This document shows positions 6,768-25,413 of a stretch of 25,426 nucleotides of DNA, piece by piece. Position 1 is the stretch's first letter, and every line of letters begins with the position of its first letter. The notes beneath the pieces are model-generated. The model had not been told where the DNA came from, did no database searches, and saw only the letters and a list, made by a program, of their open reading frames with translations. The translations under genes and the position numbers were made by a program. Source of the DNA: a virus; IMG/VR virus record IMGVR_UViG_3300034407_001302, positions 1-25,426 of that record; one strand, written 5' to 3'.

Positions 6768-8048
6768 TTATGCCATATAAGTTTTTGTAACAGGTTTCTT
6801 GACAGGATATTCATAATCGACACTATAACGAAATGCGTCTGTTAAATGCGTTCTTTCAGGATTCGATTTATCTATTTCTCTCGTACCTTCTTTTAGAACT
6901 ACTTGTTCTAAGTCTTTTATAAACTCTTTACACTTTTCGTCTATAATAGTAAACTCCATTGCTTTATTAACAGCATTTACACTATCAACAATCAATGGTG
7001 CTTTCTTTTTTACCATTAAAGAAAAGCCTTGTTTACGAAGAACGTCATGGTCAGACATAAAACTTGATGTATGTCTGTTTTTACCACTTGGGTCAGGGTA
7101 ACAAATATAATGTCCTGTCATATCAACCTTTTGTTTTCTTTTTAACAGGTCAGGGCTCTTGTATGGATATTTTTCTTTTATTAGTTTAGCAATTCTTTCG
7201 GTCATTAATTCATTTCCTCCACTATGGCTTAATTGAACCTCATCAAATACTCGTATATAAGGTTTCTCTTTATATTTTTGCCATAGAACTGCAGAAATAG
7301 GATTAATATTAAAATCCATTGCTATTCTAATAGGTAGGTAAGGGTTATAATCTATATTTTTAGAAGTGTTTTTGGCTCTATCAAAACCGTAATAACACGT
7401 TCCATGTTGTAAATTTACAAAGTTTCCATGAATATAACTACTAATTAATTTATTATCATAGTTTTCATAAAGAGAATCTATAAAATCTTTTGGTAAAAAT
7501 GGATTATCTGTTGTTTTACCTTGTATTAAATTGTACCCTGTTTTTGGATTGTCTTTCCATAAATCATATACAAAATTAAAGCCTTCAGGAGTTGTTGTTA
7601 TCCAACCTGATAAATGTTTACCATCTCTTAACCTTGATAAACCCATATCCCAAGCTTTTCTATCTTTTAAAAGTGCAGCCTCATCAATACCAAAACCTGC
7701 GAGGTTTAATCCTGCCCATCTTCTCCAATTTTCAGCACTTCTTAAAATTATATTGCTGTGTCCCTTTTTCCAATGAATTGTATATTTAACTTCACTTGCT
7801 TTGTATTGATATGAAAAACCTAATTCGTGTAATAATTCTTCTAATGTAGGTTGTAATACATCTCTTATCATAGGGTAGGTAGGCTCGGCTAATAATATAA
7901 CCTTTTTAGGATTTCTTCCTGCTTCTAATATAGCTTTTAAACAAAAAGCAACTGTTTTTCCACTACCATAACCTGCTACAAGTGCAGGATATTTAGCATT
8001 ACTTCTAATAAAGTTACTCTGATGTTGGAACACTTGATATGACTTCAA
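6768..8048 (-). CDS. terL: Large terminase subunit (packaging ATPase/nuclease)
   Basis: A 426-aa protein with both terminase domains. ATPase: Walker A ALVAGYGSGKTVAFCLK at about 22-38, Walker B LAGFGIDEAAL with catalytic Glu, and motif III WITTTPEGF. Nuclease: IAMDFNINPISAVLW (first Asp), YPDPSGK and a final HLTDAFRYSVDY with metal-binding Asp. I choose the TTG at 8048 because GGAAGGA lies 7 nt upstream; an in-frame TTG at 8054 is only 1 nt from that SD. It overlaps the small terminase gene by 35 nt. It pumps DNA through the portal and cuts concatemers. Confidence 0.93.
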   Translation of the reverse strand: MKSYQVFQHQSNFIRSNAKYPALVAGYGSGKTVAFCLKAILEAGRNPKKVILLAEPTYPMIRDVLQPTLEELLHELGFSYQYKASEVKYTIHWKKGHSNIILRSAENWRRWAGLNLAGFGIDEAALLKDRKAWDMGLSRLRDGKHLSGWITTTPEGFNFVYDLWKDNPKTGYNLIQGKTTDNPFLPKDFIDSLYENYDNKLISSYIHGNFVNLQHGTCYYGFDRAKNTSKNIDYNPYLPIRIAMDFNINPISAVLWQKYKEKPYIRVFDEVQLSHSGGNELMTERIAKLIKEKYPYKSPDLLKRKQKVDMTGHYICYPDPSGKNRHTSSFMSDHDVLRKQGFSLMVKKKAPLIVDSVNAVNKAMEFTIIDEKCKEFIKDLEQVVLKEGTREIDKSNPERTHLTDAFRYSVDYEYPVKKPVTKTYMA

Positions 8049-8394
8049 TATCAAATCCTTCCACTATATCATCTTCTATTAATGTAGGTTGGTCTGCTTG
8101 TCCTAAATATTGTTTACCTAAAAAGATTAACATAGGAACTGAACCATCATTTTTATACTTAATTTTACCTGTTTCTTTATCTTTGTATGGTGTTCCTAAT
8201 GCTCTCTTCCATTGTGCTTGTCTAAGTCTTATTTTTCCTGCTTGTCTTCCTTTTGTTAAATATTCCGAATAACTCTTTTCTAAAAGGTCAGAACTGCAAC
8301 CAAATACAGAAGCAATTTCTATATTTGTACAACCAAAACTTGCTAGTTTTTCTACTTGTTCTACATCTATGTTATATTTTTTAGGTCTAGCCAT
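8014..8394 (-). CDS. terS: Small terminase subunit-like DNA-binding protein
   Basis: A 126-aa protein starting MARPKKYNIDVEQVEKLAS. Residues 10-40 form a helix-turn-helix (ASFGCTNIEIASVFGCSSDL), followed by a helical region (GRQAGKIRLRQAQWKRALGT) and a lysine-rich linker. This Lys-rich HTH layout directly upstream of terL is typical of small terminases, which recognise the packaging site. The C-terminal tail is acidic. SD GAGG precedes the ATG, which overlaps the ParB-like gene by 8 nt. Confidence 0.8.
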   Translation of the reverse strand: MARPKKYNIDVEQVEKLASFGCTNIEIASVFGCSSDLLEKSYSEYLTKGRQAGKIRLRQAQWKRALGTPYKDKETGKIKYKNDGSVPMLIFLGKQYLGQADQPTLIEDDIVEGFDIEVISSVPTSE

Positions 8395-9004
8395 TTAATG
8401 CCTCTGCTAATGCATATTCAAATGCTTTTCCATCTGTTTCATATCCACCAATTTCTTTAACTTTATCTTTCCACTTTAACCACATATCATACGTTGCTTG
8501 TGGAACTACTAATTTTATACTCTTTAAATCTTCTTCATCATATACAGGCTCTCCTTCATCTTCCCAATCAAAGTCTAGCATATTTTCAAGGTTTTCCATT
8601 TCTTCTACTGTATCAGGCATAAATTCTGCTAGTTCTTCTATAGAAAATTCTGTTAATACTTCATTTTTAAATAAGTCTGCATAGATTGTTAAATCATCAT
8701 CAAACCATTTATGATTTCTTCTTCTTGCTATTGTTATTGCTTTTGCTTTACTTATTTCTCCAAAGTTTTCACAAGGAACTTTTTTATACTTCATTCGTAT
8801 AAGTGCTTCAAGCCTATGATTACCATCAATTACTTCAAATTTATCTCCAACCTCTCTAACTGCTAACACTCCTACTGAATTATCTTGTTTAATACTATTA
8901 ATTAACTTTTCTATTTGTTCATCAGTACCATCTGTTTTATAGTTCCAATCTGCTTTGATTAAATCTTTTATATTCATTTTCACTAACTGTGTTTTTAATG
9001 CCAT
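8387..9004 (-). CDS. ParB/Srx-fold protein beside dpdA
   Basis: A 205-aa protein with a ParB/sulfiredoxin-fold N-terminal domain: LVKMNIKDLIKADWNYKTDG, SIKQDNSVGVLAVREV and the signature FEVIDGNHRLEALIRMKYKK (about 56-75), followed by AKAITIARRRNHKWFDDD. ParB-fold domains bind or hydrolyse nucleotides and some are nucleases. In bacterial Dpd systems DpdB, a DndB-like protein with a ParB-type domain, works with DpdA to insert the modified base; this gene overlaps dpdA by 10 nt, so a DpdB-like helper role is attractive inference. The alternative is a packaging-linked ParB nuclease, since terminase genes follow directly. The acidic middle part (DFDWEDEGEPVYDEEDL) resembles phage methyltransferase-linked ParB proteins. 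SD AGAGGA supports the ATG. Confidence 0.8.
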   Translation of the reverse strand: MALKTQLVKMNIKDLIKADWNYKTDGTDEQIEKLINSIKQDNSVGVLAVREVGDKFEVIDGNHRLEALIRMKYKKVPCENFGEISKAKAITIARRRNHKWFDDDLTIYADLFKNEVLTEFSIEELAEFMPDTVEEMENLENMLDFDWEDEGEPVYDEEDLKSIKLVVPQATYDMWLKWKDKVKEIGGYETDGKAFEYALAEALNG

Positions 9005-9858
9005 ACTATTCCTCTCTTATTCCATAAATTTGTATAATAATCTTGCATTTGTTTATATGCTTTTATTGCTAATTGCATTGTATATATTCTTGTTACTTTT
9101 TTATCTTCTCCACGCAAAATATTCAAATTCATACTTTTAGGTTTTTTTAAAAAGTGTTTTTCTTTGTTATAACTTAAACAAGTAAGTTTACCTTTATCAA
9201 AATATGGTATTGTTCCATACATTTGTGGTTGTAACCAACTTGCACTATCTACTGAGTAAAAAGGATAATTTTTTAATACTTCTATTTTTGTCATAGCAAA
9301 TCCATGAACTTTTATGCCTTGTTTATAGGCAGGTTTTAGATATTTATTATAATTTAATCTTGTCCTACCTTTTCTATCTCCTTCTAATGCTACATATCCA
9401 CTTTGAGTTTGTTTTAACATTTCTAAGTAATCTTTCCAATTACAACATCTTGGGTGGTAAACAGTTACACACTTATCAAATATATTATTATCTATAAGTT
9501 GTTGCCTCCATTGATTTACTTTTTTTTGTCCAACTATTTCACCTATGTCTAATTCTGCATAATAGTCATAATATTTATAGTTTTGAACTAACCATTTTAA
9601 ATAGTCAGCCATATACTCATCAGGTGTTCCTTTTGTTTTATTTTTCTTTTGTTTATTATTTGCACTAACAATACTTTCGTGTTCTGCAAAAAAACTATGC
9701 GCACCACTATCAATAAATACTAAATTATGATTTTTTTTAGCATTTTTAATACATTTTTTACCTGACCTTATATAGTAATAAGAATAAAAAGCATTTTTAA
9801 TATCACTTGCTACTAATTGTGGTCCTCCTTGCTCTACTCCTGCTAGATATATTTTGAT
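8995..9858 (-). CDS. dpdA: DpdA-like DNA transglycosylase with non-canonical start
   Basis: A 287-aa TGT-related protein that exchanges guanine for a 7-deazaguanine base in DNA. Reading the frame upstream of the first ATG (9612) adds 82 codons that carry essential motifs: MKIYLAGVEQGG at the N-terminus and FIDSGAHSFF at about 48-57, matching the TGT DSGGF motif (D50). Further motifs are YYAELDIGEIVG (D104), VYHPRCCNW, GYVALEGD, and VHGFAMTK followed by YPFYSVDSASW (D204, likely nucleophile). Between the upstream in-frame TGA and 9612 there is no ATG, GTG or TTG. The best start is ATC at 9858, 6 nt after AAGGAG; ATT at 9864 abuts the SD. It overlaps the glycosyltransferase gene by 16 nt. Family assignment is strong; the exact start codon is inference. 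Confidence 0.85.
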   Translation of the reverse strand: MKIYLAGVEQGGPQLVASDIKNAFYSYYYIRSGKKCIKNAKKNHNLVFIDSGAHSFFAEHESIVSANNKQKKNKTKGTPDEYMADYLKWLVQNYKYYDYYAELDIGEIVGQKKVNQWRQQLIDNNIFDKCVTVYHPRCCNWKDYLEMLKQTQSGYVALEGDRKGRTRLNYNKYLKPAYKQGIKVHGFAMTKIEVLKNYPFYSVDSASWLQPQMYGTIPYFDKGKLTCLSYNKEKHFLKKPKSMNLNILRGEDKKVTRIYTMQLAIKAYKQMQDYYTNLWNKRGIVWH

Positions 9859-10793
9859 TTCAATCTCCTTGCAGTATGTTCAAAGTTTATTACATCATAA
9901 GGTGTTGGTTTTATATAATTTTCTATATAAGAATGTATCATTTCTACTAATCCCGGTAATGTTTCATATCTATATGCAGTATTAATAGTTTCTTGGTAAC
10001 TCAATCTATTAGGACTTAAAGGAATACAACCTAAATTCATACTTTCTAACATTGCAATACCAAATGTTTCTTGTTGTGCAAAACTCAACGATATTTTTGC
10101 TCTTGATAATAAATTATAATATTCATCTTTACTTTTGCATTTTTCGGCTGTTTTTACCCACTTTATCTTGTTTGGATATTTATTATTATATAATTTTTTT
10201 ACATAGTCAAACATATCAGGTTGCTTTTCAGGAGCGAGTCTATGTGGAAATACAATTATATCTTCTTTCTTTTTTGGTTTATGATTATCTAAAAATATAG
10301 GAAATTTATCAACTGTTATGTGCTTAAATGGAAACACTTTTTGTATTAATTTTTTGTGATATTTTGTTGCAACTATTATTTCATCTGCTACCATACCCAT
10401 ACTAAATTCTAAACCTCTACACCATTTGTGTAATTCTTTTTTATACAAAAAATCATTTTTATCCCACGTTCCTGCGTGTAAATAACCTACTATTTTAAAT
10501 TTCATATCAAGACAATCTCTTATGTATGCAACATTAGTTACAATAGGATTCCATAAATCTAAAAATAACAAAGTATCATTATTAGTTATTTTACCTTCTT
10601 TAATCATATCACATATTTCAATGCCTTGTTGTAATTTAAATTTATTAGTACCTATTACATCAAGAAACTCTCCATCATATATTTCTTGTATTTCTTCACT
10701 ACCAATAACACCATCAACATAATTTTTCCAATCATCTAACCATTGTTTACTATATCTTTTATTGATTGGTTCTATATGTACTAAATATATCAT
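9843..10793 (-). CDS. GT-B (GT4-like) glycosyltransferase in the modification cluster
   Basis: A 316-aa protein. The C-terminal half has a GT4-type nucleotide-sugar site: IIVFPHRLAPEKQPDMFDYV at about 180-199, YYNLLSRAKISLSFAQQETF then GIAMLESMNLGCIPLSPNRL at about 227-266 (an E-x7-E-like pattern), and SYQE. The N-terminal half has VGYLHAGTWDKNDF and DEIIVATKYHKKLI, as in the acceptor domain of GT-B enzymes. It is soluble. It lies inside the deazaguanine gene train, overlapping dpdA and the 139-aa gene, so glycosylation of phage DNA or of a modified base is a natural hypothesis. Modifying virion protein or host surface is the alternative. Confidence 0.8.
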   Translation of the reverse strand: MIYLVHIEPINKRYSKQWLDDWKNYVDGVIGSEEIQEIYDGEFLDVIGTNKFKLQQGIEICDMIKEGKITNNDTLLFLDLWNPIVTNVAYIRDCLDMKFKIVGYLHAGTWDKNDFLYKKELHKWCRGLEFSMGMVADEIIVATKYHKKLIQKVFPFKHITVDKFPIFLDNHKPKKKEDIIVFPHRLAPEKQPDMFDYVKKLYNNKYPNKIKWVKTAEKCKSKDEYYNLLSRAKISLSFAQQETFGIAMLESMNLGCIPLSPNRLSYQETINTAYRYETLPGLVEMIHSYIENYIKPTPYDVINFEHTARRLKSKYI

Positions 10794-11209
10794 TCGTTAT
10801 TTCTATCATATTTGTAGTTATCAGGTTGAATTTCCATCAAGTGGCATTTAGTTATTTGATATACACGATACCAATCATCATCTAATGATACAGTATCAGT
10901 ATCTTTTAATTTTCTTACATTGTCATCTTGTATTCTATATATAATATGAACTCGATTATATATTCCTATTGGTATTTTGTTATATGTTTGTTTATCTGCT
11001 TCAATAGTTATGTATTGTTTTGTGTCTATTAAGTTGTATAATGTATCAAATGAACTTTCTTTTATACAACTTCGTATATATTCTATTGTGAAATATATAT
11101 GCGGATATTCTTTGTAATTTTTGGGTATTGTTTTTCTTACAAATACAGTTTCAACATCTGATAATCTACCTTCTACTTCTTTTCCATACCAATAACCTTT
11201 GTTATACAT
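10790..11209 (-). CDS. Conserved-looking phage protein, 139 aa, unknown
   Basis: Starts with MYNKGYWYGKEVEGRLSDVE if the ATG at 11209 is used; GGAG lies 9 nt upstream and the start overlaps the previous stop by 8 nt. In-frame ATGs further up give a few extra residues without better SDs. It is a mixed alpha/beta soluble protein with VFVRKTIPKNYKEYPHIYFT near residue 23-42 and WYRVYQITKCHLMEIQPDNY near the end. I do not recognise an enzyme motif. Its position between the QueD-like gene and the glycosyltransferase suggests a part in making or attaching the modified base. Confidence 0.6.
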   Translation of the reverse strand: MYNKGYWYGKEVEGRLSDVETVFVRKTIPKNYKEYPHIYFTIEYIRSCIKESSFDTLYNLIDTKQYITIEADKQTYNKIPIGIYNRVHIIYRIQDDNVRKLKDTDTVSLDDDWYRVYQITKCHLMEIQPDNYKYDRNNE

Positions 11210-11546
11210 ACACTTCTGCTCCATTCTCATTATCTTCAAATACTGAACAATATTCTAAATCAAAAAATTCTAATAACTCTGTTGCAAGCATTTCACAACT
11301 TCTATGTTCAAAGAAATGTATTCTCATCTCCTCATCATAATAATTGAACTTTAAATAATCAATTACGTCTTTTTTAAAAGTTATAAATTCAACATCTCTA
11401 TCATTATGTAAAACTCTTTTTTTGCATTTTATGTAAAACATATGCCTGTGCATATATTTTAAGTATCGTGCTTCACCTTTAGCTTTTCTCCATTGGTGTA
11501 ATCCTTCTACTTGTAGTTTTACTACTATATTTACTGTCTTGTTAAT
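11202..11546 (-). CDS. Small QueD/PTPS-like (T-fold) protein with AUU or AUA start
   Basis: The first in-frame ATG (11453) would give 83 aa, but 31 further codons upstream are open and encode VKLQVEGLHQWRKAKGEARY then LKYM, which runs into HRHMFYIKCKKRVLHNDRDV. The whole pattern (VEGxHxW, then HRH-hydrophobic, DRDVEF, SCEMLATELLEFF, VFEDNENGAEV) resembles a small phage protein family I recall, and the QueD/PTPS T-fold layout (H-x-H, D-x-EF, pTxExxA, V-x-E). No ATG, GTG or TTG exists between the upstream TGA and 11453. ATT at 11546 has GAGAGGA 8-9 nt upstream and gives 114 aa; ATA at 11528 is the other option. It lies between folE and a hypothetical gene. A role on 7-carboxy-7-deazaguanine is inference. 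Confidence 0.7.
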   Translation of the reverse strand: MNKTVNIVVKLQVEGLHQWRKAKGEARYLKYMHRHMFYIKCKKRVLHNDRDVEFITFKKDVIDYLKFNYYDEEMRIHFFEHRSCEMLATELLEFFDLEYCSVFEDNENGAEVYV

Positions 11547-12361
11547 GCTAAAAATTCCTCTCTTGCTATCATATCATCTTTCATTGCACCCATCAAACAA
11601 CTTGTAGTCATTTCTCCACGTTTTTTTACACCTCGCATTTCTTGACATAAATGTCTACCTCTTGCTATAACACCAATACCTTTTGGTTTTAGTTTTGACC
11701 ACAAATAATTAGCAATATTATTTGTAAAATATTCTTGTGTATTTAACATTTTAGAATAATACTCTACTGTTCTTGGTAATTTAGATATACCAATAATATT
11801 TTTATCAGGTATGTAACCAATATCAACTGTACCAAAGAATGGTATCATATGATGTTCACAAAACGTGTAAAACGTGATTCCTTTTTCTAAAATCATTTGG
11901 TCATAACCTTGTGCATCAAATACTGTTGGATTAAATTCAGGAGGTGTAGTTAATTCTTTCCAAGCTTTTGCTACTCTTTTAGGTGTATCAATTAATCCTT
12001 CTCTTGTTGGGTCTTCTCCTATACGTTCTAATACTCTAACTATATCACTTTCAAAACCTCTATCAAAACTATTCTCCCAAGGAAAGACTATCCAAGGTAA
12101 ATTAGGTTCAATTCTTTTGTCATACAAAAATCTCATTTCTTTTTTGTATTTTTTGTATTTGTTAGCAGTGTCGCCACTATCGTATATATCATCTATTATA
12201 ACATCACAATCTTCTATGTTATTAACAGCTCTACCTGTTAAACCTGCTATAACTTGTCCACCTCTTGGTATTCCATAATACTTAACATTAGGGTTGTGGT
12301 CTTTTGTTATTTCATGTAATCTTTTATATATTTCTTCCCATGTTACATTTTGAGATTTCAT
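11531..12361 (-). CDS. folE: Phosphoribosyltransferase-like domain fused to GTP cyclohydrolase I
   Basis: A 276-aa fusion. The C-terminal part (about 100-276) is FolE: RIGEDPTREGLIDTPKRVAK, the zinc motif FCEHHMIPFFG (C168, H170) and ARGRHLCQEMRG (C239). It converts GTP to dihydroneopterin triphosphate, the first step of 7-deazaguanine synthesis. Residues 25-75 look like a small type I PRTase domain: YYGIPRGGQVIAGL and CDVIIDDIYDSGDTANKY, the PRPP-binding loop. I start at the ATG at 12361, which overlaps the queE stop (ATGA) and has GGAG 6 nt upstream; an ATG at 12373 lies in-frame without SD. The PRTase part may salvage guanine to feed GTP; that is inference. Confidence 0.88.
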   Translation of the reverse strand: MKSQNVTWEEIYKRLHEITKDHNPNVKYYGIPRGGQVIAGLTGRAVNNIEDCDVIIDDIYDSGDTANKYKKYKKEMRFLYDKRIEPNLPWIVFPWENSFDRGFESDIVRVLERIGEDPTREGLIDTPKRVAKAWKELTTPPEFNPTVFDAQGYDQMILEKGITFYTFCEHHMIPFFGTVDIGYIPDKNIIGISKLPRTVEYYSKMLNTQEYFTNNIANYLWSKLKPKGIGVIARGRHLCQEMRGVKKRGEMTTSCLMGAMKDDMIAREEFLALTRQ

Positions 12362-12990
12362 AGAATACTCCATAATTTATGTTGCTGAACACTTAACTTC
12401 CATAAAGGATTGTCTAAACACATCTGTATACAATGTTCTAAATTTTCATTATTTATATTTTGTCCATCAAAATGTGGACTTATATAATAATTTTCAGACT
12501 GTATTTTTGTTTGTGGTATTTCTTGTCCTTTATGTCTAACCCATCTTAATTCGTTACAGTGTATATCTCCATCTAAAACATTCCATTTTTTTAAAATAAC
12601 ATGTTCTGCTACTTTTGGAGAAAGTACAACCCAATCACATAAAGGAGGTTGTTTTATTCCTGAACATTCAATAGCATTTTTATAGCCAAGATGTTTATAG
12701 TAATCTAATATTTCTTGATTAAGTTGGTCTGTTGGTTCTCCTCCTGTCCATACAATCCATTTACAATTATATTGCGATATATATTTATGTAAATCATTTA
12801 ATAACCATTCTTTACCACTTGTAAATTCTGTGTCGCATCTAACACCTGATTTATAACAAGCATTTTGTGCTGAACAACCTTGGAGTCTTATAAATATACT
12901 TGGGTGGCCTGCTCTATAACCTTCGCCTTGTAGTGAATAAAATATTTCACTAATCTTTAACGTATATTGCGGAGTTTTTACTGTGTTCAT
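12358..12990 (-). CDS. queE: QueE-like 7-carboxy-7-deazaguanine synthase (radical SAM)
   Basis: A 210-aa protein with the QueE order of motifs: EIFYSLQGEGYRAGHPSIFI at 15-34, the iron-sulfur segment RLQGCSAQNACYKSGVRCDT at 35-54, WTGGEP at 81-86 and a C-terminal LSPK motif with SVQQHKLW near the end. It would turn 6-carboxytetrahydropterin into 7-carboxy-7-deazaguanine. The cysteines are spaced C-x5-C-x6-C (39, 45, 52) instead of the usual CxxxCxxC, though RCDTEF is retained. It overlaps queD by 41 nt and has only a weak SD, so coupling to queD is likely. Confidence 0.88.
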   Translation of the reverse strand: MNTVKTPQYTLKISEIFYSLQGEGYRAGHPSIFIRLQGCSAQNACYKSGVRCDTEFTSGKEWLLNDLHKYISQYNCKWIVWTGGEPTDQLNQEILDYYKHLGYKNAIECSGIKQPPLCDWVVLSPKVAEHVILKKWNVLDGDIHCNELRWVRHKGQEIPQTKIQSENYYISPHFDGQNINNENLEHCIQMCLDNPLWKLSVQQHKLWSIL

Positions 12991-13378
12991 ATACTTCTAC
13001 TTTCTCAACTTTTATATTTTCAGGTGTATTCTCGTTTATAATTTTATAACAAAATTCTGCAAACTTTTCAATACCAACACCTTCTTCAAATATTCTTAAT
13101 TGAATAATGTTATAATAATCTAATCTTTTAAATGTTTCTAATTCAGGGTCGTCTTTGGCAATACATGTTTTGTGGTCAAAATAATCTTGTAGGATACTTT
13201 TTATTTTTTTGAATCCTCCAAAATCAAAAACCCAATTACGTTCATCTAATCCTGTTTTACTTCTTAACCATACTTTACAATACAATTCATATCCATGTAA
13301 GTATTTACAATGTGAATCTGCTTTCCATTGTCTAAAACATGTACTGCCTAGTTCTATTATCTTAGTACTCTCGTTCAT
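12950..13378 (-). CDS. queD: QueD-like 6-carboxytetrahydropterin synthase
   Basis: A 142-aa T-fold protein. Visible motifs are CFRQWKADSHCKYLHGYELY at 14-33 (H23, C24, H28), LDERNWVFDFGGFKKIK at 44-60, YFDHKTCIAKDDP at 66-78 (the Asp-His pair of the active site) and a C-terminal VEVYEHSKNSA. HGY replaces the usual HGH, so one zinc ligand may differ; SHC-x3-LHGY is a variant I recall in phage homologues. It makes 6-carboxytetrahydropterin from dihydroneopterin triphosphate. It starts inside the 3' end of the HNH gene without a clear SD, implying coupled translation. Confidence 0.87.
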   Translation of the reverse strand: MNESTKIIELGSTCFRQWKADSHCKYLHGYELYCKVWLRSKTGLDERNWVFDFGGFKKIKSILQDYFDHKTCIAKDDPELETFKRLDYYNIIQLRIFEEGVGIEKFAEFCYKIINENTPENIKVEKVEVYEHSKNSAIYVKD

Positions 13379-20810: not shown

Positions 20811-21310
20811 TAATAACCTCCTGATGATGAAGTAGATACAGATACACTAGGTCTTTTAATCGTTTTATCTACTTTAAATATTTTGTTAGTTTCTTTTATA
20901 TGTTGTTGATTTACTATACTTGTAAATCCTGTTTTAGAATTAGACTTGTCTTTGTTTTTTATTGTATCCCAATTTTCAGTAAGTGATGTAAAGTCTGCAC
21001 CTCTGTAATATATATTGTTCCAATTTCTTTTAGGATTAGATATTGTAATATAAGTTTTACTTCTACCATCTGCTGTTCCAAATGCGTACCTTATTTTAAT
21101 CGTGCCTGTATATGTAAACAAGTTTTGTTCAGAATTTAACTTTTCATTAGACATGTTAAAGATTAGTATTTTGTTTTTGTTTGCTCTACAAACCCAACCT
21201 GTTGGTAAAGTTGGGTTTATAGTAATACTCCCTGTGTAATGTATTTCAATACCTCTTATATCTTGAGCATTGTATAATATAAAACTACCATTTTTTAATT
21301 CTGCATTCAT
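20810..21310 (-). CDS. Small tail-associated protein, 166 aa
   Basis: Begins MNAELKNGSFILYNAQDIRG. The first 95 residues are predicted beta strands (EIHYTGSITINPTLPTGWVC, YTGTIKIRYAFGTADGRSKT) like a small beta-sandwich; the rest is polar and ends in a Ser-rich low-complexity tail (VSVSTSSSGGY). It overlaps the upstream gene by TAATG and the downstream gene by one base. Virion component by context only. Confidence 0.6.
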   Translation of the reverse strand: MNAELKNGSFILYNAQDIRGIEIHYTGSITINPTLPTGWVCRANKNKILIFNMSNEKLNSEQNLFTYTGTIKIRYAFGTADGRSKTYITISNPKRNWNNIYYRGADFTSLTENWDTIKNKDKSNSKTGFTSIVNQQHIKETNKIFKVDKTIKRPSVSVSTSSSGGY

Positions 21311-24300
21311 TATGTCTCCAATATTAAATTTGCTAATCCTACTATATCTAAAACATTAACACCACCATCACCATTAACATCTGCTCTTATTAATTCGCCT
21401 TCTGTTGCGTCTTGTAATAAAATTATATCAACTAATCTTACAATATCAAGTACATTTATTATTGAATCTTGATTTATATCTCCAATTAAAATATCTTCAG
21501 AACTTTCTACAAAATCTTGGTGAAATGCTTTGTATATTCTTTCTCCTAAATTTGTAGTTATAATAATTCTACCACGTATTAAAGAATCAGTATTATTTTC
21601 TTGTTTTGGCTTTACTATTACATAACCATTATAATTGTTATCAGGATTTGCATATACAATAAATTCAAAACTATTTGTTTCTATTTCATAATCTTGCCAT
21701 ACACCATCTATTTTTTCCTGATATTGAACTGTCCAATTTTGTGAATCTACATCATATAACTTTGTCTGCAACACTTCTAACCTAATTGCACTTTCTTGAA
21801 TTTTAGGTAAAACAAAATTGTCTAAATACCATTCACATCTAAATTCGTTATTTATTTCTTCACTAGATTTTATAGGAGGTAAGAATTGTTCTTCAACATC
21901 AACACCAACGTAATTTCTTATTGTTCCATATTCTGTTATTTGTGATATAGATTCATAAGTATCAGGTAAAATATAATTGCTGTCTAAATTGTTATTAAAA
22001 ATTAACCATGATGGTAACCCATATTGTAATCTATGTAATCTTTTTAATTTGACTTGAACTTTGTTATTTGTTTTATTTACATCAGTTACAAAGTAAAAAG
22101 GATATAATAACTGTCCACCTTTTACTTCATATGCCCAATACTTATATCCTAAACCTTTTTTGTCTGACAATTGGTCAATGTATAACACATCTCCTACTTC
22201 TATATTATTATATTTATTAGTAAGTGTCAAATCAATCAATAGATGTTGATTTATCTTATCCATCAACATATGTTTTTTTAACAACTCAACAGTATAGGAG
22301 TTTCTTATATATTTTGCTTCAAACTCATTTACACTATCATCAATATTAATATTATATAGTTTATTCGCGTCATATAGCCAATTTTCAGGCATATTTTGCA
22401 TTGAGCCATATAAATACTCAGTTATTTCATTATAGTCTTTAAATAGTCTATTTTTAGTTTGTATTGTATTTCGTTTTGATACTTTATTGTATTCTTCATT
22501 TGCATAATCAAATTCATATGCGACTTCGTGTGTGTTATATACATCTTCAACTTTTGTTATGTCAAACTTATAATCTATAACATCATTTTTAGTTATATGA
22601 AAATTAACATCTTTCATATTATAAAAACTATTTTCTGATGTGAAGTTAAATTGACCATCTGATGTAAATCTTGGATACAACTTTGTGTTTTTTGATATTT
22701 CTTGTATTAATTCTTTTACTTTTATTTGTTCGTTTAACGTAAACCCTAGTTTCCAACCTTGATGTCTTGCTAGTGATTGATGTATTGATTCTTCGTCAAA
22801 TGAGTTAGTATTTATATCTGTTTCGTTTTCTAATAAATGTTTAAATATAAGTTCAGGTGTTTCTAATAGGTTTACAATTTCTTCGGTATATACTCTTGGA
22901 CTCCAACCATTATTAATATATTTAGTTTGTATTTGAGTTTGTGATTCTTCAGGTGTAAATCCTTGTTCCCAATCATTTAGAGTGCCTACTATATGATTCA
23001 TTCTTATAAACTTATATTTAAATGTATATGAATTAATTCTAAATGGCTCACTTGTGTATATTATAAATGGTTTATTTTCTTTTATAACTTCATTGTTTGT
23101 TGTAGTTCTTTCTAGGTTGTGATATTCACTTATTTTGTTATAGTGTGTATATATCCATATCCATTCAGGAGCATTTTCAAATTCTATATTATTTATAAAA
23201 TCATCAACTGTCATATCAGGATTACAATTTATTAACCAACCTGATTCTCCACCTGACGTATCATTACTGCTACCAAAGTCATATCTATAACCTAATCCTT
23301 GAATTGTAGTTCTAGCAACACTGTATGTATTAGTATTTGTTAATATGTTATTTAATTCGTCAGTAGTAAATGTATTTGTTTCAAATGAATTAAATGGTGT
23401 CCAAATATTTATATCATCTACTCTACCTTTAACATTAACATACCAATCTTTTTCATTTGGTTTTTCAATAAATGCGTCTTGTACTATATGCAAATAATTT
23501 AATGCACCTACTGTATGTTGTATACTATCAAAACCTTCTGCCTCAATATATTGTGGTTGTCCTATTTTTATATTTTTAAATTGTGATACAGTTGCCCATT
23601 CAGGAGCAACAGCACCATCTCTATTTAGTTTAGTAGAAGTTGTTTGTATTATATTGTTATATCCATTAACCTTTTCAGTTGTTACATTAATATTACCTAT
23701 GTTGTTGCCTTCAACAGGAGCAAATGTGTTCCAAGATATTCTCCAATCATTTTGACCTTCTTTATCTCCCCATTCATTATCTATACTATCAAATCTTAAT
23801 GAAGTTGCTTGTGGTATTTGACTAGACCAAAAAATACTTCCTGATAACCATTCATCAAAATCTTCAGTTCCATAATCTATATTTTCATTTTGATAATGAT
23901 AAATATCAAAGTAAAGTTTAGTAATACACTTGTTATCTATACCAATATCATCAAGTATAAAATCCCAATTTACATAACTACCTTGAGATTGAAAGTTACT
24001 ATGACCATAACCAAACCAACCTAAAGATTTGCTGTCATCATGATATATGTAATTTAAATAATTCTTTGGACTTAAATTAAACACACTAAAACTACCATCT
24101 TCTTTTGGTACATTCCAATTCTTAAACAATATAGATTCTACCTCATCTTCTTCAAAACCTGTTGTGTTTAGACCATCATCTAATTGAAATCCAAATGTAG
24201 TCATAGAATCAGACTCAAATGGAAATCTTGCTTCAGTTTGTAATTGATAATTTTCTTCATCAAATAAAGCGCGGTCCCATTTCATAGGAGGGTAATAACT

Positions 24301-25413
24301 TGTACCATCAAATACATCATCATCTAATGTAGAGGTAGTTGCATATAATCTACCTATAAATTCAGTTATATTGTCATCACCTCTCTCTGCTCGTACTGCT
24401 CTTTTTTGTCCACTTACATCTGTAAACTTTCTATATATTCTACTTATAATTGCACTATCTAAATCTAAACCACCTAATGATTCTGACTCTTTTAGTGCTT
24501 GTTGAAACTTAAAGTATTCTTCTGTAACCAATACTCTTGAATCAGACTTTTCAAAAAAAGTAGCATTCATATTTAGATTAATAGTCGTTTCTTGTTCTAT
24601 GATTGCTTCATAATCAATAGGAACTTTATTCAAAATATTTAAATAGTTTTCATCATGTATATATACAGGAGAGTTATAAAATAATTCACTAAATGCAGAA
24701 TCACCAACATTCACCATTGGATAACTTTCTGTATCTGTTTCAGCAAGTATGCTGTGTATAGGTTTACTATCACACTCTAAAGCCATTACAACTTCATTAC
24801 CTTCTGAATCTGATTCAAAAGGGTTTATGTTTTTTCTAGTTGGACTCTTAGTAACATGTCCATAAACAATAGGCATAGGTCTTGCTTGGTCTGTAAAAGC
24901 ATAGTCTGTACCTTCAATAAGTTCAGGTATTTTTTTATCTAATAATTTTTGTGTAAAATCTTCTGTTTCTAACTGAACAATATTTTTTTGTTGTACAAAT
25001 TTTGTTATTACTAACTGTGATACTAACATACAATCATCAATAGTTTTAGAAGATTGTGTTTTAAAATATATTCTAACAACACAATTAATTAATTTGTTTA
25101 CAGATTCGGAAAAAGATTCGCCATGAAATTCTGTGTTATTTATATCTAGTTTTACATTTTGTAATCTAAATTGTTTATTGTCTGTATCAATACTTTGTTT
25201 GTATGGAGGTGTTTTTGTTAATATTGGTTTGTAATAGTTTCCATCAAATGTTATGTTATTAGTAGATAGAAATATCTTATCTATATCTTCTACATTATTT
25301 ATTTCATCAATATTTGTTGTGTTTATAGTCTTATATATTATTACTAAAGGTATTGATTGTTGTGCATTACCTTCTGTATCAGTTTTATATCTTGTAGGTT
25401 TTATTATAGCCAT
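21310..25413 (-). CDS. Large tail protein with C-terminal dockerin-like repeat
   Basis: A 1367-aa protein, complete within the window. The N-terminal 250 residues (SIPLVIIYKTINTTNI, NITFDGNYYKPILTKTPP, VVRIYFKTQ, RPMPIVYGHVTKSP) resemble phage tail-hub or tail-tip proteins, and the long beta-rich middle fits a receptor-binding or hub structure. FTLNEQIKVKELIQEISKNT and VEVGD-type stretches near 900-1150 are typical of tail-associated modules. Residues 1311-1367 form two Ca-binding F-hand repeats, GDINQDSIINVLDIVRLVDI and ADVNGDGGVNVLDIVGLANL, as in type I dockerins. It lies just left of the window edge, with TAATG at its start suggesting an upstream coupled gene. Confidence 0.75.
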   Translation of the reverse strand: MAIIKPTRYKTDTEGNAQQSIPLVIIYKTINTTNIDEINNVEDIDKIFLSTNNITFDGNYYKPILTKTPPYKQSIDTDNKQFRLQNVKLDINNTEFHGESFSESVNKLINCVVRIYFKTQSSKTIDDCMLVSQLVITKFVQQKNIVQLETEDFTQKLLDKKIPELIEGTDYAFTDQARPMPIVYGHVTKSPTRKNINPFESDSEGNEVVMALECDSKPIHSILAETDTESYPMVNVGDSAFSELFYNSPVYIHDENYLNILNKVPIDYEAIIEQETTINLNMNATFFEKSDSRVLVTEEYFKFQQALKESESLGGLDLDSAIISRIYRKFTDVSGQKRAVRAERGDDNITEFIGRLYATTSTLDDDVFDGTSYYPPMKWDRALFDEENYQLQTEARFPFESDSMTTFGFQLDDGLNTTGFEEDEVESILFKNWNVPKEDGSFSVFNLSPKNYLNYIYHDDSKSLGWFGYGHSNFQSQGSYVNWDFILDDIGIDNKCITKLYFDIYHYQNENIDYGTEDFDEWLSGSIFWSSQIPQATSLRFDSIDNEWGDKEGQNDWRISWNTFAPVEGNNIGNINVTTEKVNGYNNIIQTTSTKLNRDGAVAPEWATVSQFKNIKIGQPQYIEAEGFDSIQHTVGALNYLHIVQDAFIEKPNEKDWYVNVKGRVDDINIWTPFNSFETNTFTTDELNNILTNTNTYSVARTTIQGLGYRYDFGSSNDTSGGESGWLINCNPDMTVDDFINNIEFENAPEWIWIYTHYNKISEYHNLERTTTNNEVIKENKPFIIYTSEPFRINSYTFKYKFIRMNHIVGTLNDWEQGFTPEESQTQIQTKYINNGWSPRVYTEEIVNLLETPELIFKHLLENETDINTNSFDEESIHQSLARHQGWKLGFTLNEQIKVKELIQEISKNTKLYPRFTSDGQFNFTSENSFYNMKDVNFHITKNDVIDYKFDITKVEDVYNTHEVAYEFDYANEEYNKVSKRNTIQTKNRLFKDYNEITEYLYGSMQNMPENWLYDANKLYNINIDDSVNEFEAKYIRNSYTVELLKKHMLMDKINQHLLIDLTLTNKYNNIEVGDVLYIDQLSDKKGLGYKYWAYEVKGGQLLYPFYFVTDVNKTNNKVQVKLKRLHRLQYGLPSWLIFNNNLDSNYILPDTYESISQITEYGTIRNYVGVDVEEQFLPPIKSSEEINNEFRCEWYLDNFVLPKIQESAIRLEVLQTKLYDVDSQNWTVQYQEKIDGVWQDYEIETNSFEFIVYANPDNNYNGYVIVKPKQENNTDSLIRGRIIITTNLGERIYKAFHQDFVESSEDILIGDINQDSIINVLDIVRLVDIILLQDATEGELIRADVNGDGGVNVLDIVGLANLILET

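Follow-up and report, generated by a model that had tools for sequence, protein, structure and literature searches.

To our knowledge, verified AUU and AUC start codons are few. Natural AUH starts are found in infC, the gene for IF3, which begins with AUU in E. coli, with AUC in Streptomyces and with AUA in S. aureus (PMC5472188, PMC13009471). IF3 discriminates against AUH codons, among them the AUU or AUC with which infC itself begins (PMC5472188). In S. aureus reporters, AUU and AUA accompanied by Shine-Dalgarno sequences (SDs) gave about 10% of the activity of AUG (PMC13009471), and reinitiation from non-AUG codons has been shown with mutant initiator tRNAs (PMC2268962). Here we describe two phage genes predicted to act in DNA modification, in which the codons at the homologous start positions are AUU and AUC. 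Both lie in a stretch of 25,426 nucleotides (the window; IMG/VR record IMGVR_UViG_3300034407_001302) from a marine-type phage, and both codons are really present in its sequence.

The two genes belong to a predicted 7-deazaguanine DNA modification module made up of FolE, QueD, QueE, a small gene and DpdA. The features of the region are:

8387-9004, minus strand: ParB-like gene, which follows dpdA in most relatives.
8995-9858, minus strand: dpdA-like guanine transglycosylase gene, read from ATC 9858 (phrog_887, E 8e-22); the N-terminus can be aligned to that of ATG-started homologues residue for residue.
9843-10793, minus strand: glycosyltransferase-like gene (PF00534, E 2.7e-7), with its stop 4 codons further downstream than in the relative L166.
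9856-9858, minus strand: ATC, most likely the start codon of dpdA, where this gene overlaps the glycosyltransferase gene.
9865-9870, minus strand: AAGGAG, SD-like, 6 nt before ATC 9858.
11202-11546, minus strand: small gene with a QueD fold, as read from ATT 11546 (114 aa, MNKTVNIVVKLQVEGLHQW...), recognized by homologues, an AlphaFold2 model and a PDB fold match.
11526-11528, minus strand: ATA, rival start codon of the small gene, 2 nt after the FolE stop, with no SD; first residue of the conserved core.
11531-12373, minus strand: FolE (GTP cyclohydrolase I; PF01227, E 1.2e-57; phrog_2197), its 3' end overlapping the small gene by 16 nt.
11544-11546, minus strand: ATT, 16 nt back from the end of FolE and most likely the start codon of the small gene, matching the queC ATG of the relative L079.
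11556-11562, minus strand: GAGAGGA, SD-like, 9 nt before ATT 11546.
12358-12990, minus strand: QueE (phrog_2076, E 1e-21).
12950-13378, minus strand: canonical QueD (PF01242, E 4.5e-18).

The closest phages by terminase (80-83%) have the order RusA-HNH-TerS-TerL and are without the whole module. In L147-L159, the place of window positions 8387-13378 is an empty site between HNH and TerS, and since the site is empty in these closest phages the module is an exchangeable cassette. FolE carries an N-terminal phosphoribosyltransferase-like domain (weak match to phrog_8995) that is also found in L079-L082 and is absent in L084. Elsewhere in the window, positions 21310-25413 encode a probable tail protein of 1367 aa that ends in two dockerin-like repeats (DINQDSIINVLDIVRLVDIIL, DVNGDGGVNVLDIVGLANLIL).

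The frame of the small gene (stop at 11202) is open back to an in-frame TGA at 11576-11574. Its first ATG is at 11453, 31 codons downstream of ATT 11546, and the 40 codons before this ATG hold no ATG, GTG or TTG. In coordinates and frame this agrees with the original prediction, which had also put GAGAGGA 8-9 nt from ATT 11546, where we count 9. With the trinucleotide frequencies of the window, 31 (40) codons without ATG, GTG or TTG are expected by chance with P ~0.20 (0.12), so that the gap by itself is unsurprising; it was dropped as stand-alone evidence, and the weight comes from homology. A start at ATG 11453 was also rejected, as it would delete the invariant H17 and L29 together with the first strand.

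Homologues of the small gene were found at 77 loci in the viral scan and in 26 records of the phage collection. The alignments of the viral homologues begin at the residue of ATA 11528, and in nearly all of them a canonical start lies just upstream of that residue, mostly an ATG 4 codons earlier (MKTN-I/V-I/V...). A canonical codon is present within 14 codons in 97 of the approximately 102 distinct viral homologues, the remaining five being longer or fused, and in the 22 cellular contigs it is present in 20/20 members placed with confidence. The window thus holds the sole member found without a canonical start (~102 viral, 20 assessable cellular). The homologues begin upstream and not at the methionine of HRHM, the orthologues in related phages have ATG, rarely GTG or TTG, at the homologous place, and nothing points to a frame error upstream. 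Since the homologous start lies upstream of 11453, the claim that the small gene needs a start other than ATG, GTG or TTG is borne out.

The best candidate for this start is most likely ATT 11546, ahead of ATA 11528. In the nearest FolE relative (L079, 79% identity), queC comes directly after folE, from an ATG that is 16 nt inside the folE sequence. In both junctions (AGCAAGAGAGGAGTTTTTAGATTT-ATGCAAAAAGCAGTA in L079, AGCAAGAGAGGAATTTTTAGC-ATTAACAAGACAGTA in the window) the distance to the end of the FolE stop is 16 nt, the same GAGAGGA ribosome site precedes the queC ATG of L079 and ATT 11546, and the first codons are in register (MNKTV in the window, MQKAV in L079 QueC). Since the site and the offset from the FolE stop are the same, ATT 11546 corresponds in position to an ATG start. 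It is unlikely that translation begins instead at ATA 11528, by termination-reinitiation without an SD. This codon adjoins the FolE stop and specifies the first residue of the conserved core, but no SD lies within suitable range of it, the starts of nearly all homologues are several codons (usually 4) upstream of it, and both the GAGAGGA site and the L079 junction favour ATT.

In the syntenic relatives L080-L082, the ATG of the small gene lies in a 4-nt ATGA overlap with folE, as it does in most junctions of these two genes. The FolE frame at the window junction reads GCA TTA, and an ATG at 11546 would create a TGA that makes FolE 4 residues shorter. Since several bases here differ from every relative, the origin of the AUU is less clear than that of the AUC at dpdA.

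The other modification gene said to have a non-canonical start proved to be dpdA, for which the homologous start is at ATC 9858-9856. The dpdA product of the window matches the phage transglycosylase family (phrog_887), with which it has conserved residues in common, and is predicted to carry out DNA transglycosylation. A search with the window dpdA alone gave no matches; an alignment-based search gave 43 loci. The first ATG of the frame is at 9612; a protein begun there would lack 82 residues, among them the conserved motif DSGAHS. The ATC-K-I-Y-L-A-G of the window corresponds exactly in position to the M-K-I-Y/F-L-A-G with which homologues begin, and the codon that aligns with ATC 9858 is ATG in 31 of them, GTG in 1, TTG in 1 and ATA in 2 (canonical in 33/35). 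In L166, the glycosyltransferase frame reads RLK-stop-KYF with ATGA at the dpdA start, against RLKSKYI-stop and ATCA in the window. The ATGA of L166 is likely the ancestral state. One G-to-C change (ATGA to ATCA) would convert the ATG start to ATC and the upstream TGA to TCA, giving a longer glycosyltransferase. A single substitution in the overlap would thus account for the dpdA start.

In L190:1282 and L195:3606, two records identical over 1833 nt, dpdA has ATA at the start position. These were set aside as an independent AUA start since they are ambiguous: an upstream out-of-frame ATG joins the frame (MKNKVFLSAVE) if a T8 were T7, and the gene can also be read as having an ATG start with T8/T7 slippage or an indel.

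As a background, 445 distinct homologous starts were tested for all gene families of the window in the fetched loci, and two were flagged. The flag in L151 was discarded as an alignment artefact in which an ATG follows immediately, and that in L190 is the ambiguous case above. Set against 1-2 in 445, 2 of about 30 testable window genes correspond to a binomial P of ~0.002-0.008, a rough value given that the relatives are not independent. With this excess over the background of relatives (1 ambiguous in 445), the expectation that two such genes are unlikely by chance was upheld. The suggestion of a host with relaxed start selection was not: the other assigned window genes start at ATG, GTG or TTG, and so do the genes of the relatives. 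Deliberate weak initiation, the other explanation offered in the original prediction, may apply. An SD of at least 4 nt is found in 16/35 window genes versus 7.8% of random positions. Neither AUH codon is kept in any relative, the orthologues having ATG, rarely GTG or TTG, so that lasting use of either is not seen in any lineage, and pattern scans of IMG/VR for near-identical junctions found none (such records may be absent from the scan). The terminase large subunit gene (window positions 6768-8054) starts at a TTG inside terS, and this TTG is common to the relatives L147-L159.

We propose, with a probability of roughly 0.7, that the small gene and dpdA are intact module genes in which the initiation codons have changed from ATG to AUU 11546 and AUC 9858, and that both proteins are probably made from these rare and weak start signals. 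AUU and AUC still pair with the initiator tRNA at the first two positions, and each codon follows an SD-like site at a suitable spacing and is located 16 nt inside the preceding gene. Since AU is kept, an SD-like site is present and the codons are positioned inside the preceding gene, initiation is likely to be SD-directed and weak, and would probably be aided by ribosomes terminating on the upstream gene. We infer the use of AUU and AUC, a low yield and coupling to the upstream gene. The module contains no nonsense or frameshift mutation, against 631 possible single-base nonsense mutations and 35 start-destroying ones.

It is doubtful that the two codons go further than this and represent an adaptive brake, by which two modification enzymes including DpdA would be held at a low, IF3-sensitive level coupled to the upstream genes. 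If true, such a brake would set the timing or extent of phage DNA modification.

A decaying module, with a recent loss of both start codons and no further production of the proteins, is rather improbable. Relatives do not share the AUH codons, and the whole module, missing from the closest phages by terminase, is dispensable, but there is no other lesion in the five genes, although decay should strike the 631 nonsense positions far more often than the 35 start-destroying ones. Both lesions would fall in start codons by random hits with P ~0.003, and AT is retained in both changes, as is an SD-like site. Very recently, the two genes may nevertheless have lost function.

It is very unlikely that consensus or assembly errors, perhaps promoted by modified guanines, made ATG into ATT and ATC. 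One base would be enough at each site, but we estimate that a rate striking 2 of about 36 start codons would leave the 25 kb with some 20 premature stops, and the conserved genes have open frames. Furthermore, the glycosyltransferase frame at dpdA stays open to a nearby stop, and related modified phages have an ordinary ATGA at these junctions. Finally, programmed -1 frameshifting, which would give FolE-small protein and glycosyltransferase-DpdA fusions and require no start codon, can practically be dismissed: both gene pairs are in the -1 relation and FolE has an imperfect heptamer (A TTT TTA), but the glycosyltransferase-dpdA junction has no slippery heptamer, and neither fusion occurs among the examined loci, where these are separate genes with their own starts.

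The AlphaFold2 model of the small protein (pLDDT 95.9, pTM 0.88) has as best PDB match in Foldseek E. coli QueD (4ntk; E 1e-4, TM ~0.7-0.75, best chains 0.73-0.75, 13% identity). The small protein resembles QueD/PTPS (PF01242) in its T-fold and in three His at the zinc positions, where H17 and H33, both invariant, and the nearly invariant H35 align with H16, H31 and H33 of QueD. It differs in that the catalytic Cys27 of QueD aligns with the invariant L29 and Asp70-His71 are unmatched, and sequence similarity is only marginal: the Pfam PTPS model (PF01242) gave no match above cut-off for the window small protein and weak matches in 7/74 members. The original label "QueD-like" therefore holds for the fold only: the small protein is not QueD, and its family is separate from the window's own QueD (12950-13378).

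QueC is absent from 59/59 small-gene loci and the small gene is absent from 16/16 QueC loci, in agreement with a check of whole records, and the small gene occupies queC's place after folE (L079 versus L080-L082). Since the small gene excludes QueC and takes its place after folE, the protein would fit a 7-carboxy-7-deazaguanine (CDG)-processing enzyme such as DpdL, which Cui and co-workers reportedly described in 2023 as a 7-carboxy-7-deazaguanine decarboxylase. The small gene has the gene context expected of DpdL, occurring with FolE, QueD, QueE and DpdA and without QueC, and DpdL would act on CDG in QueC's stead. With its QueD fold and its exclusion of QueC, the small gene makes a good candidate for a branch of phage 7-deazaguanine chemistry that is under-described.

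Several observations concern other members of the family. Phage phiST carries a homologue of the small gene. In Faecalibacterium phage Roos (L162:5989-6327), the annotated start is probably an internal ATG, with an in-frame ATG 30 nt upstream. In Chryseobacterium phage MA9V-3 (L161:5452-6333), the small domain is the C-terminal portion of a fusion whose N-terminal part is HNH-like by eye, and the neighbouring kinase-like and DpdA-like proteins are annotated as hypothetical. Along with the small gene and dpdA, 37/59 small-gene loci have a glycosyltransferase-like gene, which occurs in 0/16 QueC loci; this association suggests that the 7-deazaguanine modification bears a sugar or is extended in some other way.

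For annotation, gene finders limited to ATG, GTG and TTG would miss the first 31 codons of the small gene and the first 82 of dpdA, and with them a zinc-ligand position in the former and a conserved N-terminal part in the latter. The dpdA case also illustrates how, in an ATGA overlap, a single substitution alters a stop and a start together.

Natural AUU and AUC starts are already known from infC; those described here are in phage 7-deazaguanine modification genes, inside overlaps. Like infC, the window genes have a natural AUH codon at the start position, with no in-frame ATG, GTG or TTG before the conserved sequence, but in infC the AUH start serves autoregulation, whereas the AUH codons of the window are not conserved in relatives and have no known regulator. 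The cvfC1 (AUU) and ccpN (AUA) genes of S. aureus are similar in that an AUH start is aided by an SD, with about 10% of the activity of AUG in minimal medium (PMC13009471); they differ in being bacterial, with codons that are conserved and SDs that are extended, while the window genes are phage genes starting inside overlaps. The sigR gene of Streptomyces, whose non-canonical start reduces the yield in an operon with translational coupling (PMC5472188), is comparable, although its codon is GTC and not AUH, and its product is a regulator and not an enzyme.
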